From a virus, in IMG/VR virus record IMGVR_UViG_3300012006_000041, positions 1 to 20,400 of that record: a DNA stretch of 20,400 bases; one strand, 5' to 3'. Below, piece by piece: positions 2,990-15,236 of the stretch (positions are counted from its first letter, which is position 1; each line of letters starts with the position of its first letter). The position numbers and the translations under genes were made by a program. The notes beneath the pieces are model-generated. The model saw only the letters and a program-made list of their open reading frames with translations, searched no databases and was not told where the DNA came from.

Positions 2990-2997
2990 GGGCTTTG

Positions 2998-3282
2998 ATG
3001 TCAACGCAGAAATTCATGGGTAAAAATCAGATGCTGGATAGGCTGACGGAGCAGATGCGCACCCAGAAGAATCCCCCTGCCGACCCACAGGCGGCGGCGA
3101 TAGCGGTGCTGCAAGCGCGGGGGCAGATGAAGGATGATGGCAAGACATTCACTAAAAGCGGTGCCGCTAGGGATGCGATGACCGCTGAAGAACGTGCGAA
3201 AGACAGGGCTGCTAAAAGAACCGGGAAACCTGCAACAGCCTTTATTTACAACCCCAAAACAAACGCTGCTTTAAGGAAATAA
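2998..3282 (+). CDS. Small conserved phage protein between terminase and portal
   Basis: The 94-aa protein has no assigned function that I know. It begins MSTQKFMGKNQMLDRL, is basic and mostly helical, and carries the block MTAEERAKDRAAKRTGK (60-76) followed by FIYNPKTNAALRK at the C-terminus. I recall similar small proteins (GKNQ..DRL near the start, MTAEERA.DRAAKR..GK later) close to terminase genes of other phages, but this is memory rather than a search. The start at 2998 is preceded by AGGGG, the preceding stop is at 2989, and the portal gene starts 2 bases after its stop. A packaging accessory or minor head protein is possible by position only. Confidence 0.75.
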   Translation: MSTQKFMGKNQMLDRLTEQMRTQKNPPADPQAAAIAVLQARGQMKDDGKTFTKSGAARDAMTAEERAKDRAAKRTGKPATAFIYNPKTNAALRK

Positions 3283-5746: not shown

Positions 5747-5946
5747 TGATGTATCCGCAGTTTTCAGATGCCCTGATTAGACGGCTGCGCGAAGATATGA
5801 ATAACTATACAAACGACGCCGCTAACGGCGCTTGCAAAACATTTGACGCGTATCAAAACCTTTGCGGGGTAATAAAAGGTCTAGCCCTTGCAGAGCGCCA
5901 CATTACAGACCTCGTACGACAACTTGAAAGCGATCCAGATGAGTGA
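5746..5946 (+). CDS. Small helical protein of unknown function
   Basis: The 66-aa protein is entirely helical in appearance. An amphipathic segment FSDALIRRLREDMNNY is followed by TFDAYQNLCGVIKGLALAERHI, and the end is acidic (QLESDPDE). The first ATG is used in the junction TAATGATG; ATG 5749 is an equally possible start. It overlaps the portal stop by one base and the next gene by eight, so translation is probably coupled across all three. Small proteins with the pattern 'tFdeY..LCGvI.GLa.AE..I.dL' occur after portal genes in related phages to my memory, with no known role. Confidence 0.7.
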   Translation: MMYPQFSDALIRRLREDMNNYTNDAANGACKTFDAYQNLCGVIKGLALAERHITDLVRQLESDPDE

Positions 5947-6349
5947 AATTCTTATTGGGCAAAATCCTGATAATCCAGAACAGTCTACCGTTCTGCCAGA
6001 AACACCAGAAGCAAAAGCGAAGCAGTTGCCGCAACCATCCGGGTATCACATGCTCTGTGCGATCCCTGAGATTGATGGGACGTATGAGAGCGGCATTGCT
6101 AAAGCGGATATCACCGTGTCGTATGAAGAGCGCCTGACAACGGTGCTGTTTGTTGTCTCGCTTGGCCCCGATTGCTACAAGGATGAGAAGAAGTTTCCTA
6201 GTGGCGCGTGGTGTAAGCAAGGTGATTTTGTTCTGGTACGTCCAAACACGGGTTCACGGATCAAGATTCATAACCGCGAATTCCGCATGATTTGTGATGA
6301 CATGATTGAAGGTGTTGTCGAAGACCCACGCGGCATAGCTCGCGCATAA
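5939..6349 (+). CDS. GroES-like co-chaperonin
   Basis: The 136-aa protein resembles the Cpn10/GroES beta-barrel over residues 34-130. It starts with PSGYHMLCAIPE, where GroES has a P.gyrvLV.p strand, then has VVSLGPDCYKDEKKFPSGAWCKQGDFVLV (72-100). This matches the GroES core 'V..vGp..y.d...fp.gpwCkvGD.Vl', and the tail FRMICDDMIEGVVEDP fits the last strands. The mobile loop (about 46-65) lacks a clear hydrophobic IVL tripeptide and has only SGIAKAD. A Pro/Gln-rich leader of about 30 residues precedes the barrel. GroES caps the GroEL folding chamber; phage versions such as T4 gp31 adapt the host chaperonin for capsid protein folding. Placement just before scaffold and capsid genes supports that role. 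ATG 5939 overlaps the preceding gene by eight bases. Confidence 0.75.
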   Translation: MSEILIGQNPDNPEQSTVLPETPEAKAKQLPQPSGYHMLCAIPEIDGTYESGIAKADITVSYEERLTTVLFVVSLGPDCYKDEKKFPSGAWCKQGDFVLVRPNTGSRIKIHNREFRMICDDMIEGVVEDPRGIARA

Positions 6350-6359
6350 GGAGAACCTC

Positions 6360-7331
6360 ATGGCAAATGAAACGTATAAGTTTCCAGACGAGCAAGACAA
6401 AGATGCTGCATTGCAGCAGAAGCAAGACGATGCAGCCATAGAGTTTGATATTGAAGGCGATGTTGACATTGAAGTTAAAGATGACACGCCTGAAAAGGAT
6501 CGGGGGTACACCCCAGCGGGGAACGTAGCCGAGGTTACCGACGAAGAGTTGGAGCAATACGGCGACAAAGTTAAACGCAGAATCAAAGAGATAAGCCACC
6601 TGCGGCATGACGAGCGCCGTGCTAAAGAAGCGGCTTTTCGGGAGCGGGAAGAGCTTGAAAAGGTTGCCCGTAGCCTCGTTGAAGAGAATAAGCGCCTCAA
6701 ACAGTATGTTTCCACGGGCGAACAAGCCTATGCGGGGACACTGAAGAGTGCCGCTGACGCTGAATACGAGATTGCCAAGAAACAGTTCAAGGAAGCGCAT
6801 GAGGCTTTTGACGCGGACCTCATGATTGAGGCACAAGCGGCCTTAACTACCGCGCAGATGCGGATGGAACAAGCTAAAAACTTTAAACCAACCCCTTTAC
6901 AAGATGACTCTAATGCAGTAGAACAACAAATATCAGTCCAAGCACCTACCAAACCTGATGATAAGACCTTGCGCTGGCAAGCCAGAAACCAGTGGTTTGG
7001 TAATGATGACGAGATGACTGCCGTCGCGCTTGTTCGGCATAAGCAGTTAGTATCTTCGGGCCTAGACCCGCGTAGTGACGAGTATTACACGCAGATAGAT
7101 GCGCGTATGAAACAGCGGTTCCCTGACTTCTACAAGTCAGTAGGCGATGATGACAGCGCAGATGCTCCCGAAGTTAAAAAATCGGCAACTGTTGTTGCAC
7201 CCGCAAAGCGTTCTACAGGGGCTAAAAAAATCATTTTAACTACGACACAAGTTAGTATAGCTAAGAGGCTTGGTGTGCCTTTAGATTTGTATGCTAAACA
7301 ACTTGCTCTTCAGGAGTCTGCAAATGGCTGA
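6360..7331 (+). CDS. Scaffolding protein (putative)
   Basis: The 323-aa protein is highly charged and looks like an internal capsid scaffold, which organises coat subunits into the prohead and is then lost. It has an acidic N-terminus (1-60), then a long coiled coil with RRIKEISHLRHDERRAKEAAF and EELEKVARSLVEENKRLKQY (about 73-121), a second helical stretch rich in Ala (to about 175), a Gln/Pro linker, and a basic C-terminus (AKRSTGAKK) ending in a short helical segment. A basic helical C-terminus that contacts the coat protein is known for P22 scaffold. AAGGAG lies upstream of ATG 6360. It overlaps the next gene by 8 bases and sits two genes ahead of the capsid gene. Assignment is by composition and position. 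Confidence 0.7.
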   Translation: MANETYKFPDEQDKDAALQQKQDDAAIEFDIEGDVDIEVKDDTPEKDRGYTPAGNVAEVTDEELEQYGDKVKRRIKEISHLRHDERRAKEAAFREREELEKVARSLVEENKRLKQYVSTGEQAYAGTLKSAADAEYEIAKKQFKEAHEAFDADLMIEAQAALTTAQMRMEQAKNFKPTPLQDDSNAVEQQISVQAPTKPDDKTLRWQARNQWFGNDDEMTAVALVRHKQLVSSGLDPRSDEYYTQIDARMKQRFPDFYKSVGDDDSADAPEVKKSATVVAPAKRSTGAKKIILTTTQVSIAKRLGVPLDLYAKQLALQESANG

Positions 7332-10368: not shown

Positions 10369-11121
10369 ATGCAAACAAGCACAGATTTTCATCTGGCGGG
10401 TAAGAAACTGATGATAGGTCTTCCCGCCTATGACCACAAAGTAACTGTAAGCATGGCTGTGTCACTTATGAAACTCAGCCAGATGGTGATGCGGCATGGG
10501 ATTGATATACAGGTGAATAGCATCTGTGGTTGCTCTGTTGTCTCCCGTGCGCGTAACGTCATTGCCAAACAGTTCTTGGAGTCTGATTGTGACCACCTGA
10601 TGTTCATCGACGCGGACATGACGTTTGAGCCGGAGTCAGTTATTCGGTTGATGGGGTGGAATCAAACCCGTGGGGTTGTTGCTGGTGCGTATCTAGCCCG
10701 TAAAGAACCAAAGACATACATCTTGTCGCTGGATGGCGGAGATGGTATCAACGGCTCCCATGGCAAAGTTACGATGGATGAAGATGGGCTTGTCAGGGCT
10801 TACCGCGTAGCTACTGGCTTTATGATGATCCAGAAGCAAGTCTTTACCAAGTTGGCTGAACAGCATCCTGAGTGGAAGCACATGGATAACGGCAGTCCGC
10901 AAATGCTTTACAGCTTCTTTGACTTCTTGGTAACCCCGGAAGGCATGATTGGCGAAGACTTCCTCTTTTGTGACCGTGCGCGTGATGCTGGGTTTGAGGT
11001 ATGGGTTGACCCGACCATAAAGCTGGGTCACATGGGTGTGATTGAGCATAAGAGCGACTTTGGTGAAGACGTTCTGTATCCGTCTATGATTAAAAATCAA
11101 ACCATGAGTGACGCAGCATGA
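10369..11121 (+). CDS. Glycosyltransferase, GT-A fold (GT2-like)
   Basis: The 250-aa protein would transfer a sugar from a nucleotide-sugar donor. It opens with a strand LMIGLPAYDHKV (14-25), then SRARNVIAKQFLESDCDHLMFIDADMTF. This is the usual run into the metal-binding DxD motif, here DAD at 81-83. The segment VVAGAYLARKEP and a C-terminal GEDFLFCDRARDAGFEVWVDPTIKLGHMG (195-223) supply the catalytic acidic ED and the late metal-binding His seen in GT-A enzymes. No transmembrane segment is present, so it is cytoplasmic. Related enzymes occur inside phage structural operons; the acceptor is unknown and could be a virion protein or a host surface component. The ribosome binding site is weak, and coupling to the preceding gene is likely. 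Confidence 0.82.
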   Translation: MQTSTDFHLAGKKLMIGLPAYDHKVTVSMAVSLMKLSQMVMRHGIDIQVNSICGCSVVSRARNVIAKQFLESDCDHLMFIDADMTFEPESVIRLMGWNQTRGVVAGAYLARKEPKTYILSLDGGDGINGSHGKVTMDEDGLVRAYRVATGFMMIQKQVFTKLAEQHPEWKHMDNGSPQMLYSFFDFLVTPEGMIGEDFLFCDRARDAGFEVWVDPTIKLGHMGVIEHKSDFGEDVLYPSMIKNQTMSDAA

Positions 11122-11306
11122 GTACCGTTCAAAACGCCCCGATTACGTGGGTAGTAGAACACTTGATGTGCGACTGCGGCGGTGAGTTTCAACATAAGTT
11201 TAGCGTCAAATACAAAACCAATCCGTTCACTCATGTGTGCGATAAGTGCAATGTTATTGAAGAGACGGACGCTGTATATCCTAAAACCGTTTGGAGCGAA
11301 GCATGA
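11118..11306 (+). CDS. Small zinc-ribbon-like protein
   Basis: The 62-aa protein carries CDCGGEF (18-24) and HVCDKCN (39-45), a CxC...CxxC arrangement that suits a single bound zinc ion. The rest is short strands (QHKFSVKYKTNPF, TDAVYPKTVW). It overlaps the glycosyltransferase stop as ATGA and the next gene in the same way, so three genes are translationally chained. Zinc ribbons of this size usually bind nucleic acid or stabilise a protein interface. No partner is evident. Confidence 0.65.
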   Translation: MSTVQNAPITWVVEHLMCDCGGEFQHKFSVKYKTNPFTHVCDKCNVIEETDAVYPKTVWSEA

Positions 11307-11551
11307 GCCAAGCATGGACAAGAAAAGAAGGCAAAAACCCCAAAGGTGGTTTGAACGCGAAGGGGAGGGCATCATACAACGCCGCCAACCCCGGAAAACC
11401 CGGTTTGAAAGCGCCCCAACCAGAAGGTGGAAGCCGCAAGAAATCATTCTGTGCGCGGATGACGGGTATGAAGAAGAAGCTGACTTCAGCCAAGACCGCC
11501 AATGACCCGAATAGCCGTATCAATAAAAGCCTTCGGGCTTGGAAGTGTTAG
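11303..11551 (+). CDS. Small basic protein (possibly DUF6321-type)
   Basis: The 82-aa protein is basic and begins MSQAWTRKEGKNPKGGLNAKGRASYNAANPGK, followed by KAPQPEGGSRKKSFCARM and ending SRINKSLRAWKC. These three blocks (GKNPkGGLnakGRasYn, GGSrkkSFcARM, sriNksLRaW.c) characterise a small uncharacterised family widespread in marine phages; I believe it is listed as DUF6321, but that name comes from memory. Charge and Gly/Lys content suggest nucleic-acid contact, perhaps packaged with DNA. The start at 11303 overlaps the preceding stop as ATGA; a start 12 bases earlier is less likely. Confidence 0.7.
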   Translation: MSQAWTRKEGKNPKGGLNAKGRASYNAANPGKPGLKAPQPEGGSRKKSFCARMTGMKKKLTSAKTANDPNSRINKSLRAWKC

Positions 11552-11560
11552 GAGATAAGC

Positions 11561-11815
11561 ATGGCGGGTAAAAAACTTACCGACGCAGAAACTAAAAAAC
11601 TTGAGGACAAAGCGCCGACTACTAAAACAACTATGGGCGAAGGAAAACTTGGCTCAACTGATTATTTTGGTTTTGAACCCTCCAGTTTTAATGAAGCCGG
11701 TAAAAAAGCCGTGGAACCAACTTACGTTAAGCGAAAAGCTGGTGGCTCTGTAAAAAAGATGGCTCGTGGCGGTGGCATTGAATCTCGCGGCAAGACTAAA
11801 GGGCGGTTTGTATAA
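11561..11815 (+). CDS. Small Lys/Gly-rich protein with RGKTKG tail
   Basis: The 84-aa protein has a charged first half (KKLTDAETKKLEDKAPTTKT), a middle DYFGFEPSSFNEAGKKAVEPTY and a very basic glycine-rich tail: KAGGSVKKMARGGGIESRG, then KTKGRFV. The tail closely resembles the end of the next gene product (KMASGGSVG...DGIAQRGKTRC). It has AGGAGATAAGC before its ATG, and its stop overlaps the next start as TAATG. I know similar tails from small proteins of uncultured phages, with no known function. DNA binding inside the capsid is a reasonable guess from charge alone. Confidence 0.65.
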   Translation: MAGKKLTDAETKKLEDKAPTTKTTMGEGKLGSTDYFGFEPSSFNEAGKKAVEPTYVKRKAGGSVKKMARGGGIESRGKTKGRFV

Positions 11816-13089
11816 TGCCTTCTACCTCCAAGAAGCAGCATAACTTTATGGCAGCAATTGCCAACAACCCATCGTTTGCTAAAAAAGTTGGGGTATCTCA
11901 ATCTGTTGGCAAAGACTTCAATGCTGCTGACAAAGGTAAAACTTTTAATAAAGGTGGCATTATGAAGAAACGCAAATTTGCAACCGGGGGTTTGGAAGAC
12001 GAAGGCTTTACTCCGGAAGAAAGTTACGATGAAGAAGGTAATCCTTCTACCGTTTATCGCAAAGGCTTTAGCCCAAATATTCGGATGAGTGAAAAAAAAT
12101 CTACCGCTAAAGTTAAACCTGCTGCTAAAGCTAAATCTGCCGATAAAAATAAACCCGCTGGAGACACTTACTTTGACGGCGACTACCCCAGTTCAATGAT
12201 AACTACGTCTTCTGGTTTTAAAAAGTATGTGCCAAAAAGTGGCAGAGGATTAGTTGGAATTGTTGGCAATGAAGATGAGGGTGACCGTCTCCGCGCCCGT
12301 TTGGGTGATACTGATGACCAATTCAAAGGTATTAGCCGTGCAGGAAGGTTGTTCCGTAGGGACACTGAAGCTGGAATTAAACAAATGAAAAGGGGCGGAA
12401 TGATGAAAGAATCTAAAGCAATGGTTGGCAAAGAAGTGTCCTTTATGCAAAAGAAGGGCGCTCCCGCTTCCATGATTAAACATGAAAAAGCCGAGATGGG
12501 TATGAAAAAAGGCGGTATGCCCATGAAAGACGGAAAACCTGCGTTTATAAAGAAGTTTGTCGAGGGCGGCGCTGAAAGCGATGCTTACGAGCTTGAGCCA
12601 CAGCGTATGGGGCGGCAAGAGGGGGCTAAGGAATACCTAAAACGTAAACAGACCGAAGACAGTATCTCTAATCCAATTGTTCGTGGGTTACGCAAGGCCA
12701 CGACATACGCTAAAGACAAGTACGGAGATTTGCGGGACGATGTTCGTACTGCCATTACTTCTGATGATAGCGCCGCGTTCCGTAAGGGGCAACGGGCTAT
12801 TCGTGAAAAAGTGTATGGATACAAAAAAGGCGGTATGCCCATGAAAGACGGGAAGCCATCGTTTATGAAGAAGTTTGCCAAGGGCGGCGTTACAGGCAGA
12901 AGCGGTTATGTTGCCAATGGCAAAAGAGAAAATTCCACTACGGGTGACTCGGTAGCTGGCGAGAACCCAAAAATTCAAAAAAGAGGTCTTACTGAGGGGC
13001 GCGTCATTAAGATGGCTTCGGGTGGCTCCGTTGGCTCCGCTTCACGCCGTGCTGACGGTATTGCTCAACGCGGCAAGACCCGCTGCTAG
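11815..13089 (+). CDS. Large Lys/Gly-rich modular protein, unknown function
   Basis: The 424-aa protein seems built from small units. Residues 1-42 (MPSTSKKQHNFMAAIANN...) resemble the SKKQ.NFM head of small phage proteins. Residues 45-60 are basic and Gly-rich. Residues 62-185 are mixed-charge, Lys/Ala- and Asp-rich. Residues 190-230 (MKRGGMMKESKAMVGKEVSF, then KHEKAEMGMKKGG) resemble a small protein otherwise found alone. KKGGMPMKDGKPAFIKKF (231-248) recurs as KKGGMPMKDGKPSFMKKF (337-354). The tail DGIAQRGKTRC matches the tail of the preceding gene product. There is no membrane segment and no enzyme motif. Such composition points to a nucleic-acid-associated or internal virion protein. It overlaps the preceding stop by one base. 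Confidence 0.65.
   Translation: MPSTSKKQHNFMAAIANNPSFAKKVGVSQSVGKDFNAADKGKTFNKGGIMKKRKFATGGLEDEGFTPEESYDEEGNPSTVYRKGFSPNIRMSEKKSTAKVKPAAKAKSADKNKPAGDTYFDGDYPSSMITTSSGFKKYVPKSGRGLVGIVGNEDEGDRLRARLGDTDDQFKGISRAGRLFRRDTEAGIKQMKRGGMMKESKAMVGKEVSFMQKKGAPASMIKHEKAEMGMKKGGMPMKDGKPAFIKKFVEGGAESDAYELEPQRMGRQEGAKEYLKRKQTEDSISNPIVRGLRKATTYAKDKYGDLRDDVRTAITSDDSAAFRKGQRAIREKVYGYKKGGMPMKDGKPSFMKKFAKGGVTGRSGYVANGKRENSTTGDSVAGENPKIQKRGLTEGRVIKMASGGSVGSASRRADGIAQRGKTRC
12505..12570 (+). repeat. 66-bp internal repeat, copy 1
   Basis: It encodes the 22-residue unit that starts KKGGMPMKDGKP and ends KKFVEGG. The first 29 bases (12505-12533) are identical to copy 2 at 12823-12888; later differences are scattered. 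Confidence 0.75.
12823..12888 (+). repeat. 66-bp internal repeat, copy 2
   Basis: It encodes the second unit, starting KKGGMPMKDGKP and ending KKFAKGG, 318 bases after copy 1 and in the same frame. The high DNA identity suggests a recent duplication or gene conversion. Confidence 0.75.
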
Positions 13090-13090
13090 G

Positions 13091-13375
13091 ATGCGCCCGT
13101 CTCGTGGGATGGGGGCCATAGCCCCTTCAAAGGTGCCAAAGCTCATCAAGAAGCGTGATGGGAACGAGCCTGTTAAGGTGTTTAAAGAGGGCGGTGAAAC
13201 AAAGTCCAAAGTAAATGCTGCTGGTAACTACACCAAGCCGGGGCTGCGTAAACGCATCTTTAATAGCGTCAAGGCTGCGGCAATTGTAGGCACGGGTGCT
13301 GGGCAATGGAGCGCGAGGAAGGCGCAAGTTATGGCTAAACGCTACAAGGCCGCTGGGGGTGGATACCGTGATTAA
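13091..13375 (+). CDS. Small basic conserved phage protein
   Basis: The 94-aa protein starts MRPSRGMGAIAPSKVPKLIKKRD. Its C-terminal half contains KSKVNAAGNYTKPGLRKRIF (37-56), then GAGQWSARKAQVMAKRYKAAGGGYRD. This half matches a conserved phage block 'KVN.aGNYTKP.mRKrlF..ik....g.pGqWSARKAQ.lAk.YKa.GGGY' that I remember from marine phage genomes, without a known function. It is strongly basic, helical at the C-terminus and probably binds nucleic acid or an acidic virion protein. ATG 13091 sits two bases after the preceding stop with no clear ribosome binding site, so coupling is likely. Confidence 0.7.
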   Translation: MRPSRGMGAIAPSKVPKLIKKRDGNEPVKVFKEGGETKSKVNAAGNYTKPGLRKRIFNSVKAAAIVGTGAGQWSARKAQVMAKRYKAAGGGYRD

Positions 13376-13484
13376 ACATACTGAAGACTGTCTGCTTGAA
13401 GAATCTGGTCAATGTAATTGTGACGCAATGACTGACGAAGAAATAGACGCTGAATTACTTGAAAAAGAGGACGCAAAAACGTGA
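13368..13484 (+). CDS. Very small acidic Cys-containing protein (GTG start)
   Basis: The 38-aa protein reads MIKHTEDCLLEESGQCNC, then an acidic helical end (DEEIDAELLEKEDAKT). The GTG start overlaps the preceding gene by eight bases (GTGATTAA), with GGGGGTGG seven bases ahead. It overlaps the next gene as GTGA. His and three Cys (HTEDC, CNC) could hold a metal, but too little sequence is present to say. The unbroken overlap chain on both sides is the best evidence that it is translated. Confidence 0.5.
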   Translation: MIKHTEDCLLEESGQCNCDAMTDEEIDAELLEKEDAKT

Positions 13485-13714
13485 AAGCGCCACAGCAATC
13501 GCTAAAAGACTGGGGTGACCAGAAATGGCGCACTAAGTCTGGTAAACCATCGTCAAAGACGGGTGAGCGATACCTGCCAGAGAGGGCAATTAAAGCCCTC
13601 AGTCCACAAGAGTATGCAGCCACTACCAAAGCTAAACGGCAAGGTAAGGCGGCAGGTAAGCAGTTTGTAGCCCAACCCAAGAGCATAGCCAGAAAAACGG
13701 CGGGATATAGATAA
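13481..13714 (+). CDS. Small basic protein (possibly DUF5872-type)
   Basis: The 77-aa protein starts at GTG 13481 in a GTGA overlap, with GAGG upstream. The sequence QSLKDWGDQKWRTKSGKPS (6-24), KTGERYLPERAIKALSPQEYAAT and GKQFVAQPKSIARKTAGYR matches a small family found in phages and some bacteria, which I believe is DUF5872 (name from memory). No activity is known. It is strongly basic. The stop overlaps the next ATG as TAATG. Confidence 0.7.
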   Translation: MKAPQQSLKDWGDQKWRTKSGKPSSKTGERYLPERAIKALSPQEYAATTKAKRQGKAAGKQFVAQPKSIARKTAGYR

Positions 13715-14445
13715 TGGCTGCTAAAACCACAGATACCACCGCTTTTAACCTAGACCTAAATGGTCTGGTAGAAGAGGCGTTTGAGCGTTGCGGACAGGAG
13801 TTACGGTCTGGCTACGACATGCGGACGGCTAGGCGCTCCCTGAACCTGCTGACGATGGAGTGGGCTAATCGCGGTATCAACATGTGGACTATAGAGCAGG
13901 GCAGTATACCGCTGGTATATACCACTCCAACTCCGACGATTACCTACGACCTGCCGGTAGACACCGTAGACCTGCTTGACCACGTTATCCGCACGGGAAC
14001 TGGCACCAATCAGACCGACATTAATATCAGCCGCATATCGGTCAGCACCTACGCATCCATCCCCAACAAGAACGCGACGGGTAGACCCATCCAAGTCTGG
14101 ATACAGCGCCTCTCAGGGGCTACAGACTCGACTAACGCTACCGTCCCACCCAACATCAACGTCTGGCCTTCGCCGGATAACAGTCAGACCTACACCTTCG
14201 TTTACTGGCGTTTGCGCCGGATGCAGGACGCTGGGAATGGTATCAACGGGCAGGACATCCCGTTTCGGTTTATGCCCTGTATGGTGGCTGGGCTGGCTTA
14301 CTACCTGTCCCTGAAGATACCCGGCGCGGAAAGTCGTATCCAGATGCTTAAAGCGGAGTATCAGGAGCAGTTTGAGATGGCGGCGACGGAAGACCGGGAA
14401 AAGGCGTCTGACCGGTTTGTTCCCCGTCAGATGTTTATAGGCTAG
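13714..14445 (+). CDS. Connector / head-tail adaptor-like protein
   Basis: The 243-aa protein probably joins the portal to the tail. It has an N-terminal helical bundle (LNGLVEEAFERCGQELRSGY, 15-34, then TARRSLNLLTMEWANRG), a central strand region with ITYDLPVDTVDLLDHVIRTG and VSTYASIPNKNATGRPIQVW, and a C-terminal helical part with PFRFMPCMVAGLAYYLSLKIPG (211-232 region) ending in KAEYQEQFEMAATEDREKA. This helix-strand-helix layout and the 'DLPaDtvdll..virtG' and 'vyWRLRRMqDAGn' phrases match phage adaptor or tail-accessory proteins as I know them. The closest functional analogue by position is the P22 gp4/gp10 connector set. It overlaps the preceding gene by one base. Confidence 0.65.
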   Translation: MAAKTTDTTAFNLDLNGLVEEAFERCGQELRSGYDMRTARRSLNLLTMEWANRGINMWTIEQGSIPLVYTTPTPTITYDLPVDTVDLLDHVIRTGTGTNQTDINISRISVSTYASIPNKNATGRPIQVWIQRLSGATDSTNATVPPNINVWPSPDNSQTYTFVYWRLRRMQDAGNGINGQDIPFRFMPCMVAGLAYYLSLKIPGAESRIQMLKAEYQEQFEMAATEDREKASDRFVPRQMFIG

Positions 14446-14847: not shown

Positions 14848-15000
14848 ATGGATAAGAAACAGGTTAAGAAGATTGCCGACAAAGAAATTAAAGGGCATGA
14901 GAAACGTCTGCACGGCATGAAAAAAGGCGGAGTTACGGGTATGGCTATGAAAGCCGTGGGTCGTAATATGGCTCGTGCGAACAACCAGAAGGGGAAATAA
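14848..15000 (+). CDS. 50-aa Lys-rich protein
   Basis: This small frame starts at ATG 14848 with AGGAG eight bases upstream, and its stop overlaps the next start (TAATG). It reads MDKKQVKKIADKEIKGHEKR, then LHGMKKGGVTGMAMKAVGRNMARANNQKGK. Net charge is strongly positive and the middle KGHEKRLHGMKKGG resembles residues 221-234 of the 424-aa protein encoded at 11815 (KHEKAEMGMKKGG). A DNA-binding or internal virion protein is plausible; no function is established. Confidence 0.65.
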   Translation: MDKKQVKKIADKEIKGHEKRLHGMKKGGVTGMAMKAVGRNMARANNQKGK

Positions 15001-15236
15001 TGGCTGATAATCTTCCGGCTTCTGCCTACGCCAAGCCGCACACCATGACTGGCAAGTCTGTAACGGTTGTTAATAATCCCGGTTCTGGTAAAGACTTGAG
15101 TAATCTTAAAAATCGGGTTATGAGTACCGGTAATGTCAGCACTTCCATGATGAACGAAGTGAAGACCTCTGGCATTCAGGTGCGTGGTGGTAAGGCGCAG
15201 ACCAAAGGCAAGATGGCTCGTGGCCCGATGGCGTAA
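15000..15236 (+). CDS. Small basic protein of unknown function
   Basis: The 78-aa protein begins MADNLPASAYAKPHTMTGKS, runs through short strand and turn segments (VTVVNNPGSGKDLSNLKNRV) and ends in a basic Gly/Lys tail RGGKAQTKGKMARGPMA. It starts on the last base of the previous stop (TAATG), so it is translationally coupled. I do not recognise it. The tail resembles those of the 84- and 424-aa proteins upstream in composition (K/R, G, M) but not in exact motif. Confidence 0.6.
   Translation: MADNLPASAYAKPHTMTGKSVTVVNNPGSGKDLSNLKNRVMSTGNVSTSMMNEVKTSGIQVRGGKAQTKGKMARGPMA

Follow-up and report, generated by a model that had tools for sequence, protein, structure and literature searches.

In phage T4, the internal proteins IPI-III and Alt carry a capsid targeting sequence (PMC7411985), a short N-terminal sequence on non-homologous, variable phage proteins, which recruits this cargo to the prohead and is cleaved by gp21. 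The heads of SPN3US and the phiKZ-like phages contain many internal proteins that are carried with the DNA and processed, and their propeptides and ejection proteins have been described (PMC5694885, PMC7411985); the propeptides are long and individual (64-130 aa), with a proposed targeting role. The virus record considered here (the window, a stretch of 20.4 kb that is itself a fragment) encodes two proteins, C and D, which end in a common tag of ∼25 residues. Like the T4 sequence, this tag is a short terminal sequence on non-homologous, variable phage proteins. In contrast to T4, recruitment is a role that we propose, with packaging inferred, the position is C-terminal except in some members of gene H, and neither a protease nor a cut site was seen. 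The putative targeting role resembles that of the SPN3US/phiKZ-like propeptides, but the tag is one shared sequence and the phages are unrelated. The functional class of the tag is, provisionally, best called a variant of the terminal targeting signals. The cassette that the tag defines has not been described before, and the core strings of the tag were absent from the literature searched.

Judged from its genes, the window is of the Pam1-type short-tailed organisation, the gene order of which was described in PMC9382816. Genes for a terminase large subunit, portal, GroES-like protein and MCP flank the cluster, with an adaptor gene (J) to its right. By tblastn, J has matches in CRP-901, Pag-Yong1 and DSL-LC04 to proteins with the annotation adaptor or portal-adaptor (the DSL-LC04 record uses the name 'Pam1 adaptor protein'), and the MCP has relatives in HTVC023P, HTVC027P, CRP-901, DSL-LC04 and the 65,014-bp Pag-Yong1 record. 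The Pam1-type phages HTVC023P, CRP-901, Pag-Yong1 and DSL-LC04 have the same head module (GroES-like, scaffold-like, MCP, cement and adaptor), but their content from MCP to adaptor differs from that of the window, and among those inspected a significant tag was present only in Pag-Yong1. The GroES-like co-chaperonin gene, which these four phages have too, lies at 5888-6349 in the window, between the portal and a scaffold-like gene at 6360-7331. The records OQ594354, OL906435 and PP438419 are 65,014 bp each and gave identical match values under different named cyanobacterial hosts; their host assignment is doubtful. The features of the cassette are as follows.

A, 11118..11306, + strand: 62 aa, possible zinc ribbon; sporadic, 2 loci
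B, 11303..11551, + strand: 82 aa, net +17, DUF6321 (PF19846); Pfam 71.9 bits, cut-off 28.5
C, 11561..11815, + strand: 84-aa tagged protein; tag HMM E 2.9e-5, residues 57-84
C-terminal tag of C, 11735..11812, + strand: KAGGSVKKMARGGGIESRGKTKGRFV; tag HMM
D, 11815..13089, + strand: 424-aa tagged protein, net +38; internal KKGGMPMKDGKPxF repeats
N-terminal MPSxSKKQHNFM domain of D, 11815..11949, + strand: phrog_16759, E 7.8e-21; tblastn
C-terminal tag of D, 13012..13086, + strand: MASGGSVGSASRRADGIAQRGKTRC; tag HMM E 2.7e-14, consensus
E, 13091..13375, + strand: 94 aa, net +17; phrog_17747
F, 13368..13484, + strand: 38-aa acidic ORF; window only
G, 13481..13714, + strand: 77 aa, net +14; phrog_14910
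J, 13714..14445, + strand: portal-tail adaptor at the right edge of the cassette; tblastn
H, 14848..15000, + strand: 50-aa basic protein; conserved order
I, 15000..15236, + strand: basic protein of 78 aa next to H; conserved order

A sequence-only reading of this stretch had suggested that a chain of seven small, mostly basic genes, from A to a cluster end at 13714, forms one functional unit, perhaps of DNA-condensing or ejected internal proteins or of late host modifiers. All seven ORFs were found where it had placed them, as were their junctions (ATGA at 11303, a 9-base gap before 11561, TAATG at 11815, a 1-base gap before 13091, an 8-base overlap at 13368, GTGA at 13481 and TAATG into 13714). 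Its description of charge applies to B (+17), C (+9), D (+38), E (+17) and G (+14), which are strongly basic, but D with its 424 aa is not small. Net charges of the other computed window proteins ranged from -26 to +4, the exceptions being those at 14848 (+11), 15000 (+8) and 2995-3282 (+10). The last of these is a small basic protein encoded between terminase and portal, the end of which (MTAEERAKDRAAKRTGKP..FIYNPK) looks like the end of gene G.

The conserved gene order was determined in 80 IMG/VR loci retrieved with gene G, using profiles built from each window gene. In nearly all 80 loci, the order was MCP, cement-like, 10067-like, (glycosyltransferase), B, one or more C/D genes, E, G, J, K, H, I and Q. 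Among the loci searched, G was found in 84, E in 83, J in 81, K in 74, H in 69, I in 68 and B in 65. This order, kept across 80 relatives, supports the idea of one functional unit, and independent scattering of its genes was not seen within the lineage. The limits of the unit had to be redrawn, however. It does not end at 13714, since H (14848) and I (15000) share the conserved order, and two of the proposed members do not belong to it. Gene A was present in 2 loci and is probably not part of the unit, and its Pfam match (E 0.073, under the cut-off) leaves it a possible zinc ribbon. The acidic F was found in one locus, the window itself; in the nearest relative (L002, 99% identical) it is absent and E and G overlap directly, and F is probably an insertion or no gene. 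The cassette is thus a fixed frame of B, E, G, J, K, H and I with an interior consisting of a rotating set of 1-5 unrelated tagged proteins. Upstream it adjoins a glycosyltransferase-like gene (10369-11121; phrog_1574, with weak GT2/Anp1 similarity), of which only 18 loci have a detected copy. In other lineages, MEP401 has B-E-G directly ahead of the terminase, E and G are adjacent in HTVC035P, and they lie apart in HMO-2011.

The main feature of the cluster, which the earlier reading had overlooked, is the tag KKGGxVxSASxRADG[IC]Ax[RK]GKT[KR]GxM at the ends of C and D. When the C/D proteins of the relatives were compared side by side, their bodies were wholly different and their ends alike. 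The motif occurred 173 times in 74 loci, every time on the coding strand; 150 of these matches were at the C-terminus (84 exactly four residues from the end), and the remaining 23 were near the N-terminus of gene H. The consensus of 143 distinct tails was S-A-S-x-R-A-D-G-[IC]-A-x-[RK]-G-K-T-[KR]-G-[KR]-M-[VC]; its G and T positions were conserved in 100% and its D in 96%, and the median net charge of the tail was +8. An alignment of 89 representatives added an invariant upstream GG in a KKGG context, and the tag was the sole conserved stretch of these proteins besides the initial Met. Pooling two independent sets gave at least 318 tagged ORFs. Of their bodies, 268 had a length of 45 residues or more; these formed 79 families, including 51 singletons, and no similarity outside the tag was seen in any of 199 same-genome pairs. 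These comparisons show that the tag sits on bodies without a common origin. In four relatives the tag is fused onto the C-terminus of B, and in 25 of 67 relatives H matches the motif at E<0.01, its position, where determined, being close to the N-terminus; the H of the window is without it. The tag of the window's C is divergent (tag HMM E 2.9e-5 vs 2.7e-14 for D). In the Pag-Yong1 isolate the tag profile, for which the best reversed decoy scored 0.037, found one tagged protein, UMO75986.1 (E 1.1e-5), encoded between the capsid and adaptor genes. Pfam and PHROGs recognised none of the 89 tagged representatives apart from the B fusions, and the body of C had no match in either. A tblastn search of the phage collection with the bare tag, a query that is too short, gave no match. 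The similarity of the end of gene I to the tag was not significant with the tag profile, which also gave no support to the HTVC023P ends RGxGAAxRGxxFxGV as relatives of the tag. These ends are found on two unrelated HTVC023P proteins (L094:13-393 and L094:10481-10864) and are possibly a second, different C-terminal tag.

In IMG/VR, a degenerate DNA pattern of the tag alone returned at least 73 loci, some of which were other pieces of contigs already in the set. Among the matches listed, 73 of 73 loci contained B, E, G or J, and among the loci listed for this pattern all 174 tags agreed in strand. With a second pattern (DGCA type), the cassette was present in 68 of the 71 loci among the matches listed; the other three were contig ends or 1-kb pieces. 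In eight records of 45-63 kb, all matches to the tag DNA pattern fell inside the cassette, and a reversed control pattern gave 0. In the genomes examined, the tag is thus confined to this cassette.

A conserved tail could also be a DNA or RNA element, either the ribosome-binding site of the next gene or a recombination site for gene shuffling. Such shuffling is evident here, and in 237 of 318 tagged ORFs the end overlaps the next ATG or adjoins it. The codons point elsewhere. None of the 258 same-genome tag pairs was identical in DNA, and synonymous sites were saturated, with 0.70 synonymous and 0.19 nonsynonymous differences per site. Mean codon entropy was 1.55 bits at wobble positions and 0.47 and 0.46 bits at the first two, and wobble was near-random (1.9 bits) at the last core codons; because the genomes are related and not independent, these codon values are descriptive and do not amount to formal tests. 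Because of this codon pattern we rejected a DNA repeat, recent gene conversion and a ribosome-binding element as causes of the conservation, and we regard a ribosome-binding or recombination element as ruled out and any nucleic acid element as highly improbable. As read from the codons, selection on the tag acts at the level of protein, not DNA.

We also considered how quickly the tagged bodies change. Cassette pairs in which the adaptor J was 90-99% identical had a mean of 0.17 of their tagged families in common, as computed without the common MPSxSK family, and 33 of 52 such pairs had no tagged family in common. Between the window and L002, J, K, G and B are 98-99% identical, yet C is missing from L002 and D is 424 aa in the one and 221 aa in the other. 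The tagged bodies thus turn over quickly while flanking genes stay >90% identical. This bears on the idea that the cassette encodes tail or neck assembly chaperones, or minor head proteins, that act on J through the tag as an assembly interface. The cassette always adjoins J, and small DUF5872-like and DUF6321 proteins occupy the same slot in HTVC023P and DSL-LC04 (the DUF5872 half-matches there are weak). Such proteins would be expected to co-vary with J, however, whereas swapping was observed at constant J, and we consider this idea quite unlikely. The bodies themselves had 14.5% hydrophobic content, compared with 28.8% for the MCP, and one TM-like segment among 268; they are probably disordered, and these two properties are compatible with unfolded passage through the portal. 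Pfam and PHROGs revealed no enzymatic or anti-defence domain in any tagged body. The N-terminal domain of D also occurs in the jumbo phage proteins phiKZ 165.1, RaK2 ORF156 and 201phi2-1 p383, and in phage BUCT555. RaK2 ORF156 has the record label 'virion structural protein' but is absent from the main text of the RaK2 paper.

Among the constant genes, E from 13211 on corresponds to the first half (GNYTKP...GQWSARKAQ...YKAAGGGY) and G to the second half (SLKDWG..WRTKSGK...RYLP...GKQFVAQPK) of a two-part DUF5872-like protein. A profile search of genome contigs with the joined E-G alignment gave 403 confirmed relatives, and 78 of the best 80 of these 403, all bacterial, had both halves in a single ORF. 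E and G thus correspond to the halves of a single bacterial protein, a relative of DUF5872 (PF19197). Window E and G each had no match to the DUF5872 profile; among seven bacterial fusions searched against Pfam, it was found in three (L120 27.7, L108 26.4 and L122 22.6 bits), one of which exceeds the cut-off of 27.5 bits. DUF5872 has the same two-part layout as these fusions, with both halves in one chain, whereas in this phage they are separate adjacent genes. Four of the seven fusions had a Rho_N match at the C-terminus (E 0.018 to 1.7e-4, under the cut-off), and this Rho_N-like domain, together with the charge of B, E and G, fits nucleic-acid binding. AF2 predicted a helical fold for the fused E-G protein with high confidence (pLDDT 92.7, pTM 0.60), and this model had no fold match in the PDB.

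Upstream of the bacterial fusion gene (L108-L187), near its start, the motif GGAAC-N16-19-GTT was found in 23 of 78 cases, compared with 0.39 expected from the same contigs; these 23 include close relatives, and independent cases are fewer. The motif has the general form of EcfG promoters in alphaproteobacteria. The bacterial DUF5872-like gene may accordingly belong to the general stress response. Through E-G, three families unknown in PHROG/Pfam are tied to bacterial genes that have stress-type promoters, and a laboratory bacterium could therefore reveal the function of the E-G domain. The resemblance to stress-response genes would also suit late host-takeover factors that are not packaged, with the tag docking on a host or phage machine such as RNA polymerase, ribosome, nucleoid or protease. 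Rapid turnover is in keeping with this idea, and a late-gene location is no proof of packaging. Host-takeover genes are, however, common in early regions, and the position of the cassette and its strict linkage to head and adaptor genes would be unusual for them, which makes such a role rather unlikely in our view.

Charge itself offers another explanation, namely that the cassette encodes a basic chromatin that neutralises the genome and compacts it in the head, with the tag as a basic DNA-binding tail. With a net charge of +18 to +21 per 100 aa, B, E and G resemble histones, and with H included the range reaches +22; the basic tail and the bacterial Rho_N-like domain would also suit such a function. 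Against this, the bodies of the tagged proteins are no more than mildly basic, with a median of +5 per 100 aa, and 13 of 144 are acidic, so that the tag and not charge is what unites these proteins. The invariant D-G, G and T positions go beyond a charge patch, and dense turnover of bodies is unexpected for a structural condensing protein. We therefore consider DNA condensation an unlikely explanation.

The reading that we prefer is that of a sorting tag, which would recruit a rotating and mostly disordered cargo to the virion with B, E and G as nucleic-acid-associated partners. It would require a constant tag reader in every phage of the lineage, and the whole set is placed among head and adaptor genes. 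With the T4 capsid targeting sequence as precedent, a label for exchangeable cargo at the assembling head is the simplest account. As an address label, the tag would bind a single constant partner that each phage of the lineage makes, which might be scaffold, portal, adaptor or B/E-G, and any protein given the tag would be recruited to the assembling head. More tentatively, the cargo might travel in the virion together with the DNA, to which B and E-G would be bound, and enter the host at infection, by analogy with the T4 internal proteins, and its variability might reflect an arms race with the host. Annotated proteomics of other phages gave no support for B or the N-terminal domain of D, and for this reason our confidence in a sorting tag stays a little short of even. 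In S-SM1 (virion study PMC3037559), the B-domain protein is annotated 'hypothetical' and not structural; neither it nor 201phi2-1 p383 is annotated as MS-detected, whereas neighbouring proteins are. The product of the DUF6321 gene goes unmentioned in the cryo-EM paper on P-SCSP1u. Two further points count against the sorting tag, namely the divergent tag of C in the window and the finding of no recognised enzymatic or anti-defence domain in the tagged bodies. No prohead protease that could make a T4-style cut was recognised in the 20.4-kb fragment. A more specific form of the proposal, possible but more doubtful, is an exchangeable cargo system with a dedicated C-terminal sorting signal in a common aquatic podovirus lineage. 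Any tagged protein would then be loaded into the particle and reach the host in it, and the constant partners on the DNA side would be DUF6321 and the split stress-type DUF5872. Under the sorting-tag reading, the tag is a sequence rule by which 79 body families, nearly all of them new to Pfam and PHROGs, can be assigned to a single predicted pathway, and 'hypothetical proteins' become a list of cargo that can be tested. It also offers a candidate with which to ask whether a C-terminal signal can bring unrelated proteins into phage heads.

The AF2 model of B was of moderate confidence (76) and had no matches, BFVD returned uncharacterised viral relatives only, and PDB sequence searches with B, D, E and G gave nothing usable; the low PDB E-values of G came from repeat stretches of designed proteins, no single stretch being significant. 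By sequence, B, with which the conserved cassette begins, covers model positions 1-72 of DUF6321 (71.9 vs 28.5 bits) and is a full member of this family, which is also found in cyanophages. B stands alone, whereas in cyanomyoviruses the domain is the C-terminal part of longer proteins, such as the 427-aa 'structural protein' of Synechococcus phage RN05-S (L089:2957-4240). The N-terminal part of that protein looks like several further small basic modules.
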